Part shown: positions 13,100-53,703 of the stretch, piece after piece
Layout: the number at the start of each line of letters is the position of its first letter
Numbering within the stretch: the stretch's first letter is position 1
Assembly: GCA_025993795.1 (NCBI GenBank)
Contig: JAMQHL010000013.1
Location: 1-64,000 of the forward strand
Length of the DNA: 64,000 nt
Reading direction: 5' to 3'
From: Planctomycetota bacterium
Lineage (GTDB): Bacteria > Planctomycetota > UBA8742 > UBA2392
The notes under the pieces: generated by a model
Database searches by the model: none
Told to the model about the DNA's origin: nothing
The model's input: the letters and a program-made list of their open reading frames with translations, nothing else
Program-made: the position numbers and the translations under genes

Positions 13100-14068
13100 T
13101 CACATGGCGCTACCGTGAAGCAACCATCCCAGGTGTCTGTCGCGCAGCACAAAGTCTTCGCGGCTCAACTTTCGCAGGTTGAACTCCCCCACCAGCTCAT
13201 TGGCGGTTGCCGGTTCTGGTTTGTCGATCAACCCGGCGGACCATGCCAGAAAGCCGGTAACGCGCCGTGCGTCTGCGCCCTGCTCGCGCAACGACTTGAG
13301 CGACAGGTCGCCGTCACGCTTGGCCATGCGCCGGCCCATCGCATCCTGAATGAACGGGACGTGCGCCCACTGAGCCGGCGACGGCAGGCCCAGCGCACGC
13401 TGAATGGCAATCTGCCGCGCCGTGCTGAGCAACAGGTCACGCCCGCGCAGCACCTGCGTAATGCCCTGCAATGCGTCGTCCACGCCAACCGCAAGCTGAT
13501 AGCTCGGCAAGTCGTCGCGGCGCCACAAAACGAAATCACCAAGCGTTGACGGGTCAACAGTCAGGTGGCCCCGCAGCTCGTCGTGAAATACAACCGGCGG
13601 CCCCTGCCATAGAAAGCGCCAGGCTGGTTCGCGCCCGGTATTGGCCTTGGCGTGCATGGCGTCGCGCCACTTGCCGCGACAAGTACCGGGATAGATCGGG
13701 CCCTCATCAAAGTGGGGCGCGCTGGATGCCTCGTCAATGTCGCGGCGCGTGCATGTGCAGGGGTACGCCTGGCCCTGTTGTGCCAGTGACTCCAAGTGCT
13801 TGCGGTACAGATCGGTTCGGCTGCTTTGAATTGCGTCGTCCGGTAACCCGTCGTTTGCGCTCCGGGTTCTTGCTCTTTGCAGCGCAAGCCAATTCATGTC
13901 CTGCAGGGCTGCTTTCGTGAACTCGGGTTTGCAGCGCGGCTTGTCGATGTCTTCGATGCGCAGCAGCACGTTGCCCCGCGCCCACAGCCATGCCAGCAGA
14001 AAGCTGCGGGCGTTGCCCAGGTGCAGCATTCCTGAGGGCGTTGGCGCAAGTCTTCCAAGCGGCGTCAA
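13100..14068 (-). CDS. gluQ: Glutamyl-Q tRNA(Asp) synthetase
   Basis: This 322-residue protein is a truncated glutamyl-tRNA synthetase lacking the anticodon-binding domain. The HIGH-type motif is PSGMLHLGNAR (about 10-20). The KMSKS-type loop is RRMAKRDGD. A CTCTRRDID segment followed later by YPGTCRGKW gives the Cys/Tyr zinc site typical of GluQRS. The enzyme charges glutamate onto queuosine-34 of tRNA-Asp rather than onto a tRNA 3' end. The start overlaps the stop of the upstream dehydrogenase gene by four bases (ATGA), so translation is coupled. Confidence 0.93.
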   Translation of the reverse strand: MTPLGRLAPTPSGMLHLGNARSFLLAWLWARGNVLLRIEDIDKPRCKPEFTKAALQDMNWLALQRARTRSANDGLPDDAIQSSRTDLYRKHLESLAQQGQAYPCTCTRRDIDEASSAPHFDEGPIYPGTCRGKWRDAMHAKANTGREPAWRFLWQGPPVVFHDELRGHLTVDPSTLGDFVLWRRDDLPSYQLAVGVDDALQGITQVLRGRDLLLSTARQIAIQRALGLPSPAQWAHVPFIQDAMGRRMAKRDGDLSLKSLREQGADARRVTGFLAWSAGLIDKPEPATANELVGEFNLRKLSREDFVLRDRHLGWLLHGSAM

Positions 14069-42788: not shown

Positions 42789-42933
42789 ACTGAATCGTTC
42801 GGTGCGCGGAAGTGTAGCAATCAGCGTATCCCGCGGAAGTCTCCGGCAGGCGGCCAATTTCTGCGGCGCTGTTCCAAGTGCTTCGACGGAAATCCTGAAC
42901 ATTGACCAGTCAATAACCAGACGAACGGCATGC

Positions 42934-52641: not shown

Positions 52642-52681
52642 GAAAAGGAAGGAGCCTCCCCGTTGGCGGACGGAGAGGCTC
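52642..52681 (-). terminator. Terminator of the lysine-rich mini-protein unit
   Basis: On the minus strand GAGCCTCTCCG and CGGGGAGGCTC pair (ten of eleven) over an eight-base loop. A T-rich tail, CTTCCTTTTCC, follows. It lies about 135 bases beyond the mini-gene stop. Confidence 0.55.
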
Positions 52682-52817
52682 AAGAGTGTGTGCAGTTACT
52701 GAAAGTTGGTCTGTCTTTGCTGCATTTGTGGCGTTTGAATCAGAGGTGTTGCTTGTGCCGAGTCATTGCTTGGTGTGACTAGGTTCTGTCTTGGCCTTCA
52801 CCCAGGCCGCAGGGTAA

Positions 52818-52901
52818 CTACTTCTTCTTCTTCTTGGCGGTCTTCTTCTTTGCGGCCTTCTTAGCGGGTTTCTTTGCCTTTTTCTTCGCGGTAGCTGCCA
52901 T
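52818..52901 (-). CDS. 27-residue lysine-rich mini-protein (histone H1-tail-like)
   Basis: This minus-strand gene of 28 codons encodes MAATAKKKAKKPAKKAA followed by KKKTAKKKKK. It has 15 Lys, 8 Ala and one Pro, with no acidic residues. The Shine-Dalgarno AAGGAGG lies six bases before the ATG, a consensus promoter lies 39 bases before, and a T-tailed hairpin follows. The composition matches the Lys/Ala/Pro tails of histone H1-like and HU-tail proteins, so nucleic-acid binding is likely. It is too short for standard gene calling. The known family is unclear. Confidence 0.7.
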   Translation of the reverse strand: MAATAKKKAKKPAKKAAKKKTAKKKKK

Positions 52902-52946
52902 GCTCCCCTCCTTAGTTTTTCACGAGGCACACACTCATTGGTATGA

Positions 52947-52975
52947 AAAGTATCCTGTACTGACACACCCGTCAA
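52947..52975 (-). promoter_or_regulatory. Sigma70-type promoter of the mini-protein gene
   Basis: On the minus strand TTGACG (52975-52970), a 17-base spacer and TACTTT (52952-52947) form a near-consensus promoter. It gives a leader of about 40 bases that contains the Shine-Dalgarno. Confidence 0.6.
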
Positions 52976-53002
52976 AAGAAAATCATGCACGATCTTTTAC
53001 CA

Positions 53003-53067
53003 CTTGACACGTCAATAGCTCCCAGCGGGGTCCCGACCGGCCCATTTCTTGACGCGTCAATAGCCCC
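53003..53067. promoter_or_regulatory. Pair of TTGACRCGTCAA palindromes (putative operators)
   Basis: TTGACACGTCAA at 53004-53015 and TTGACGCGTCAA at 53049-53060 are 45 bases apart. Each lies in a 20-base direct repeat continuing ATAGCYCC. The second is a perfect palindrome. They lie between the mini-protein promoter and the lipoprotein gene at 53080 and look like repressor or activator sites. Confidence 0.55.
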
Positions 53068-53079
53068 GAGGGCACGTCC

Positions 53080-53703
53080 ATGAGGTACTTGACCGCCTTG
53101 CTTGCCTTGTCCAGCGCGGCTTTGCTGGCATCGTCCTGCGCTTCGTCGCAGAAACCCGTGCTCAGTCAACCTGAGGTCGCGGTGACCACCATACGCCAGG
53201 CATTCGACAAAGACGATGTTGGACTTTTTCTCCACACTCTGGGCAGACCAGTGTTGAAAGAATACAGCGAGCACATTATTCGCATCGGCTGGAGCGACAT
53301 CCGCCCCCACGTCGGCAGCTTTGTACAGTCTGCAAAAGTTGTGGAGGTGGCTGACCATGCCCGTGAAAAACCCGCCGGGTCACCGCAGGGCTTTGTGTGG
53401 CCCAACGAGGGCGCCAGGCTCAAGCGTGCCCGCCTCTCTGTCGACGGCACTACCGAAGACTTCCTGTTTGAGCTTGAGGTGGACGACGCGCCCGAGACTG
53501 CAAAGCAGGCACGCGGGTTCTGGATCGGCGACCGCTACTATGTAAAGACCGAGCACGATTCACCCGAAACCTATCTGGTCGATGACTCACCCGAAGCCGA
53601 CCGCACCCACTGGCGCCTCGTGTTCCCTTACTACCCCTTCCAGCGCGACGGCCAGCTTACGCGCAAACTGCAGGACCAGCTCGCCGCTGAAAAGAACGGC
53701 TAG
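53080..53703 (+). CDS. Hypothetical lipoprotein (207 aa)
   Basis: The lipoprotein signal ends LLASSC (Cys20). The mature part begins with a helix typical of NTF2-like lipoproteins (PEVAVTTIRQAFDKDDVGLFLHTL). Strands follow through GFVWPNEGARLKRARLSVDG and FWIGDRYYVKTEHDSPETY. It ends with a charged helix. A DUF4878-like fold is possible but unproven. It is preceded by two TTGACRCGTCAA palindromes and is probably controlled by them. GAGGG lies upstream of the ATG. The ccmE gene follows on the same strand after a gap of about 100 bases. Confidence 0.72.
   Translation: MRYLTALLALSSAALLASSCASSQKPVLSQPEVAVTTIRQAFDKDDVGLFLHTLGRPVLKEYSEHIIRIGWSDIRPHVGSFVQSAKVVEVADHAREKPAGSPQGFVWPNEGARLKRARLSVDGTTEDFLFELEVDDAPETAKQARGFWIGDRYYVKTEHDSPETYLVDDSPEADRTHWRLVFPYYPFQRDGQLTRKLQDQLAAEKNG

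Follow-up and report, generated by a model that had tools for sequence, protein, structure and literature searches.

The window, a stretch of 64,000 nucleotides from a Planctomycetota bacterium, contains a gene for a Lys-rich mini-protein. Judging from comparison of related genomes, the gene is real, belongs to one Planctomycetota family and had not been called before. Most likely, it encodes a stand-alone nucleic-acid-binding mini-protein resembling the tail of histone H1, which is produced from an end-closed and probably long-lived mRNA. We place the probability that the function of the mini-protein is nucleic-acid binding at about 0.6. Planctomycetota are noted for unusual nucleoids. In Gemmata, a 2012 review of the evidence found no histone homologue and only HU proteins (PMC3440768).

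The gene lies on the minus strand. Its promoter, TTTGACG-N14-GGATACTTTT (52946..52976), includes a −35 element TTGACG (52975-52970) separated by a 17-nt spacer from a −10 element TACTTT (52952-52947), as read from the sequence. The ribosome binding site AAGGAGG (52907..52913) precedes the ATG at 52901 by 5 nt, and a GGAG-type site is found at a similar distance from the ATG in all 13 relatives. The frame (52818..52901, including the stop codon TAG at 52818) encodes MAATAKKKAKKPAKKAAKKKTAKKKKK, a peptide of 27 residues with 15 Lys and no acidic residue. It is followed by an intrinsic terminator hairpin (52652..52681), recognized by a hairpin scan and by alignment, with a 12-bp covarying stem, the loop CCGCCA and a T-rich tail (52651-52641); this hairpin is the strongest among eight terminator-like sites in the 6 kb scanned. 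Thus, the promoter, ribosome binding site, 28-codon Lys-rich frame and terminator of the original prediction are all in place on the minus strand with correct spacing. The span given to them, 52642-52975, holds these signals and falls short of the full extent, as the conserved unit reaches upstream to two dyads at 53060-53004. A generic sigma-70 scan, the filter of which is stricter than this site, left the promoter of the window out of its list, and therefore support for the promoter comes from its conservation in the family.

The family sample consists of 16 genomes (G000-G015) from genera labelled g1, g3, g5, g6 and so on. In 13 of them the promoter pattern matches once and only once per genome, and the reversed control has no match. 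All 13 matches precede a Lys-rich frame, including those in two g6 genomes, in which the frame is not directly beside rplI. In a 14th genome, the 3′ end of the gene is visible where the contig stops (L006; JAGQRI010000045.1), and the remaining two, G003 and G007, which gave no gene match, are drafts of 87-88% completeness. A search beside rplI in other genomes, as had been suggested, was made on rplI neighbourhoods taken from named Planctomycetota MAGs and relatives found by whole-genome search, and it gave a Lys-rich frame in the same orientation in 11 family genomes. The original prediction would have fallen with a lack of conservation in close relatives; instead, the presence of the gene in 13 of the 16 family genomes backs the proposal of a stand-alone Lys/Ala/Pro mini-gene that has a promoter and a terminator of its own. 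A polycation of 22-28 residues is encoded by a complete, conserved gene that, as had been claimed, sits below gene-calling limits and has been overlooked across a bacterial family.

It might be argued that such a frame arises by chance or as an assembly artefact without function, since slippage can create low-complexity codon repeats. Such an origin is scarcely conceivable in the face of the comparative data: the gene is conserved in five genera, its base changes are biased to third positions and its promoter match is unique in each genome. Moreover, when the 64-kb window was simulated 150 times with an order-3 Markov model, no frame of 20-130 residues reached 40% Lys (maximum 26%), whereas the real window has exactly one, at 56%. 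A leader peptide or attenuator has been ruled out, as the terminator is directly downstream and the next gene, rplI, is convergent. A hydrophobic frame on the opposite strand has also been ruled out as the true gene, as its start is not conserved among relatives; the frame stays open since, read in that register, the complements of Lys/Ala/Pro codons give no stop. A search for RNA families of the Rfam type gave none at gathering score and one weak sub-threshold match on the other strand.

The 13 members have lengths of 22, 24, 24, 25, 26, 27, 28, 35, 40, 45, 57, 66 and 111 residues and contain 12 to 52 Lys each. Overall, Lys makes up 49% of the residues, Ala 31%, Pro 9% and Thr 6%. Only M, A, K, P, T, G and S are used, besides one C, and neither Asp/Glu nor an aromatic residue occurs in any member. 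The predicted composition of a histone H1 tail, Lys/Ala/Pro-rich and devoid of acidic residues, therefore holds throughout the family. Length changes are due to gain or loss of (P)AAKKK-type units, always in whole codons. In seven member pairs, 44 codon differences are synonymous and five non-synonymous, and 47 of the 55 base changes are at third positions. This pattern, as far as it can be read from the codons, is that of purifying selection on a simple polycation combined with expansion and contraction of (P)AAKKK units. A ribosomal or other known protein has been ruled out: no Pfam or NCBIfam family matches the mini-protein, and its top match in the PDB is no better than chance. The NCBIfam H1-like model NF038053 gives 15.4 bits against a cut-off of 80, with the 111-residue member only. 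In the genome of the window, the RNase E/G (L002 1417-1596; G000:C9) ends in a tail of the Lys/Ala/Pro type (AKKPAKKAAKK...).

On these grounds the locus would be a monocistronic gene, and its product a mini-protein that is intrinsically disordered and strongly cationic. This mini-protein would work like a free tail of the histone H1 type: irrespective of sequence, it would bind to the backbone of DNA, of structured RNA or of both, and once bound would help to compact or neutralize the nucleic acid. Its length may be tuned through gain or loss of (P)AAKKK units. Binding by so short a peptide may be weak and salt-sensitive. The likely targets, DNA or RNA, are directly testable, and the family offers a natural length series of free H1-type tails, from 22 to 111 residues, for studying the effects of tail length on DNA and RNA compaction.

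Ordinary similarity searches miss the mini-gene. A profile search of the phylum found it in one of 199 genomes and missed the window itself; being too insensitive, it was replaced by a DNA pattern for the start of the gene, ATGGCNRSNAMNRCNAARAARAAR. Among 392 Planctomycetota genomes, this pattern, which misses two known members (G005 and G010), occurs once each in 11 family genomes and in six others. None of the six non-family matches is a stand-alone version of the gene, and the sole one in the same order belongs to an N-terminal extension of a DksA/TraR zinc-finger protein. Within the limits of the start pattern, the stand-alone gene thus looks family-specific. The DksA/TraR protein (L239 1501-2172; G016) has a Lys/Ala/Pro start like that of the mini-protein, MATKAKKKASASKPKKRPAKKPAAKK....

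The mini-gene had been described as lying next to the ribosomal protein operon. In the window rplI does adjoin it, as a convergent neighbour outside its own unit; the linkage itself is not conserved. In G012, the mini-gene is on a different contig from rplI and is accompanied there by its lipoprotein neighbour. The latter, a divergent gene for a 207-residue lipoprotein (53080..53703, plus strand), is found beside the mini-gene by tblastn in 13 of 13 genomes with 50-100% identity; it has no Pfam or NCBIfam family and is followed in the window by ccmE and ccmF. Because G012 separates the gene from rplI and the lipoprotein neighbour is kept in all 13 genomes, the link with the ribosomal protein operon is, on genomic arrangement, incidental.

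The predicted mRNA has a structural feature of its own. The two ends appear to pair with each other, GAGUGUGUGC at the 5′ end with a segment close to the terminator on its upstream side: the 5′ strand GAGTGTGTGC (52927..52936, minus strand), located 3-5 nt from the predicted transcription start, has its exact reverse complement in GCACACACTC (52693-52684, minus strand), just upstream of the terminator. The minimum-free-energy fold of the mRNA holds this end helix in all 11 members outside g6, and in the same 11 of the 13 genomes no other window of the mRNA is as good a partner for the 5′ end as the segment before the terminator. Three compensatory changes are found: GAGTATGTGC with GCACATACTC in G004, GAGCGTG with CACGCTC in G005 and an outer pair changed from C-G to T-A in G006. 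In an alignment of nine distinct rows, two of the rows having been put in register by hand in a way that leans towards the structure, the end helix has three pairs changed on both sides (reached by 2 of 500 shuffles) and 91% paired cells; together with the terminator, nine pairs are changed on both sides (0 of 500 shuffles) and 94% of cells are paired. Slid versions of the alignment have only 23-57% paired cells. When partners were shuffled between genomes, equally strong duplexes arose in 4 of 2000 trials. Counting against the end pairing are the hand-set rows, the weakness or absence of the helix in g6 genomes and the GU/AC-rich strands, which pair partly through composition alone. On balance, pairing of the mRNA ends and the terminator is well supported by the aligned sequences.

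What would such a closure do? Removal of the 3′ end changes the predicted unpaired probability of the ribosome binding site little and with no consistent sign. As the site is about as accessible with the 3′ end as without it, protection of the 5′ end is the preferred reading: transcript ends would pair beside the terminator hairpin, leaving the ribosome binding site accessible, and the closure most likely protects the message from 5′-end-dependent decay and so would keep expression high. The same layout could instead be that of a type I toxin-like or end-gated message, in which end pairing keeps the full-length mRNA inert until 3′ trimming frees translation, as in hok and aapA. A small frame of 22-28 codons for amino acids in most genera, a long 3′ UTR and 5′-3′ pairing beside the terminator are indeed the arrangement described for AapA1/AapA3 and hok (PMC6733600). 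However, the helix uses the extreme 5′ end rather than the ribosome binding site, which is not hidden, the peptide has no hydrophobic stretch, and the lack of conservation of the 3′ UTR between the stop codon and the end helix speaks against an antisense partner. A toxin-like message is thus very unlikely, and protection of the 5′ end remains the favoured role of the helix.

The terminator raises the question of whether the RNA itself acts. While the stem swaps base pairs freely, the loop CCGCCA (52664-52669 in the window) is the same in 10 genomes, and an eleventh has CCGCTA instead. In 2.6 Mb of fetched sequence (strand-counted), 9 of the 13 distinct hairpins with a CCGCCA loop and a stem of at least 7 bp are this terminator element, and of the ten copies of GTCCGCCAAC in the genome of the window only that of the mini-gene is in such a hairpin. 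These properties would suit a bifunctional transcript that acts through its nearly invariant loop, with the peptide as a second product. Such a dual role is nevertheless quite unlikely: the two g6 genomes have a different terminator, conservation of the frame alone explains most of the constraint, and no complementary target has been identified.

Transcription would start from the dedicated promoter, and a dyad upstream of it is presumably a regulator site. The 12-bp dyad, TTGACRYGTCAA, has a fixed place before the promoter. The proximal copy TTGACGTGTCAA (53004..53015, minus strand), about 70 bp upstream of the predicted transcription start, is at −39 or −38 from TTTGACG in 13 of 13 genomes; in g1 and g3 genomes, a second copy, which in the window is the perfect palindrome TTGACGCGTCAA (53049..53060, minus strand), is 45 bp further upstream, at −84. 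By pattern counts and fetched stretches, on which the dyad statistics rest, 15 of the 16 family genomes carry 30-158 copies of TTGACRYGTCAA each and G005 carries five (reversed control 0-2), and four further genomes of the class have 0-1 copies each. In the genome of the window, 49 copies are found against about one expected from Markov models of orders 2-5, an approximately 50-fold over-representation; for TTGACNNGTCAA, the numbers are 97 and about 3-4. A global regulator or a nucleoid protein may bind the dyad, whose tie to the mini-gene is its fixed position only. An ordinary local operator has been set aside as too simple, since most copies are inside genes (41 of the 49 TTGACRYGTCAA copies in the genome of the window are inside open frames, according to a crude ORF finder).

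Several observations concern the other copies. TTGACNNGTCAA, with RY as the best centre, is enriched 30-50 times, an excess confined to this family; most of its copies lie within genes, and a preceding T and a following A are avoided. The copies in the window are at 53004-53015, 53049-53060, 42902-42913 and 13546-13557, and one copy is about 110 bp upstream of the tRNA-Pro of the window. Tandem dyads 20 bp apart stand before a tRNA cluster of 12-13 genes in three genomes of two genera, g1 and g5 (L253 3139-3170 in G000:C9, L251 2055-2086 and L252 2007-2038), and other dyads stand before tRNA-Arg and tRNA-Leu genes. Three tRNA loci among 47 have a binomial chance of about 0.001, assuming 50 tRNA units with 300 bp upstream each. 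Another dyad is about 20 bp upstream of a c-di-AMP riboswitch (L202 3614-3781 in G000:C25; Rfam RF00379, 86 bits) and may overlap the promoter of the riboswitch.

Dyads of the same type before the tRNA cluster in two genera, tRNA-Arg and tRNA-Leu hint at co-regulation with translation, and AlgP, which has a similar tail, associates with polyphosphate granules (PMC9239181). From these points, the main target of the peptide might be ribosomes or rRNA, or else polyphosphate, instead of the nucleoid. We consider this unlikely, as the mini-protein has no similarity to any ribosomal protein family and the linkage to rplI is not conserved, while the position of most dyads inside genes makes the tRNA link suggestive only. 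An H1-tail-like binder of nucleic acids remains the preferred reading. A broader scheme, which we offer as speculative and rather improbable, is that of a system specific to this family. Its free H1-tail-like peptide would come from an mRNA that a covarying helix closes end to end and an invariant loop marks. Expression would be under a regulator that recognizes the TTGACNNGTCAA palindrome at about 100 chromosomal copies, some of them at tRNA promoters and others within genes, and the packing of the chromosome might in this way be set jointly with the output of stable RNA.

Lys/Ala/Pro tails of the H1-like kind are already known from Hc2, BpH1 and AlgP; what is new here is the size, the arrangement and the RNA form. 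Also new are the pairing of the 5′ end with the segment before the terminator, the covarying terminator stem with a nearly invariant loop, and the fixed, genome-wide enriched dyad. A bacterial mRNA that does not encode a toxin, with end pairing supported by covariation, also makes the role of closure in stability testable.

The longer relatives of the mini-protein resemble the repeat tails of Hc2, BpH1 or AlgP, a type of tail known to bind DNA (PMC2848022, PMC9239181). Like the mini-protein, Hc2 (HctB) of Chlamydia and BpH1 of Bordetella and relatives consist of short Lys/Ala-rich repeats with in-frame gain or loss of units, the number of repeats in the Lys/Ala/Pro tail of Hc2 being variable (PMC2848022). 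They are, however, about 150-237 residues long, whereas the mini-protein has 22-111 residues, is Arg-free and is built of PAAKKK units; it shares the composition and the variation in repeat number of H1-like proteins and not a significant match to their curated model. The C-terminal KPAA tails of AlgP and PhaF in Pseudomonas have similar Lys-Pro-Ala repeats, an H1-like composition and predicted disorder. In AlgP, the repeat number varies and KPAA peptides bind DNA (PMC9239181). The tails of AlgP and PhaF are joined to a folded N-terminal domain, whereas in the mini-protein the tail is the whole protein. As for the RNA, hok and aapA mRNAs likewise have a small frame and paired 5′ and 3′ ends (PMC6733600), but there the pairing hides the ribosome binding site and the peptide is a toxin, whereas in the mini-gene mRNA the pairing does not specifically conceal this site, and the encoded product is a polycation. 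In icaR mRNA of Staphylococcus aureus, the 5′ and 3′ UTRs also pair within one mRNA (PMC3868564); there the partner of the 3′ UTR is the Shine-Dalgarno region, and translation is blocked by the pairing, whereas in the mini-gene mRNA it is the first transcribed nucleotides that would pair beside the terminator.
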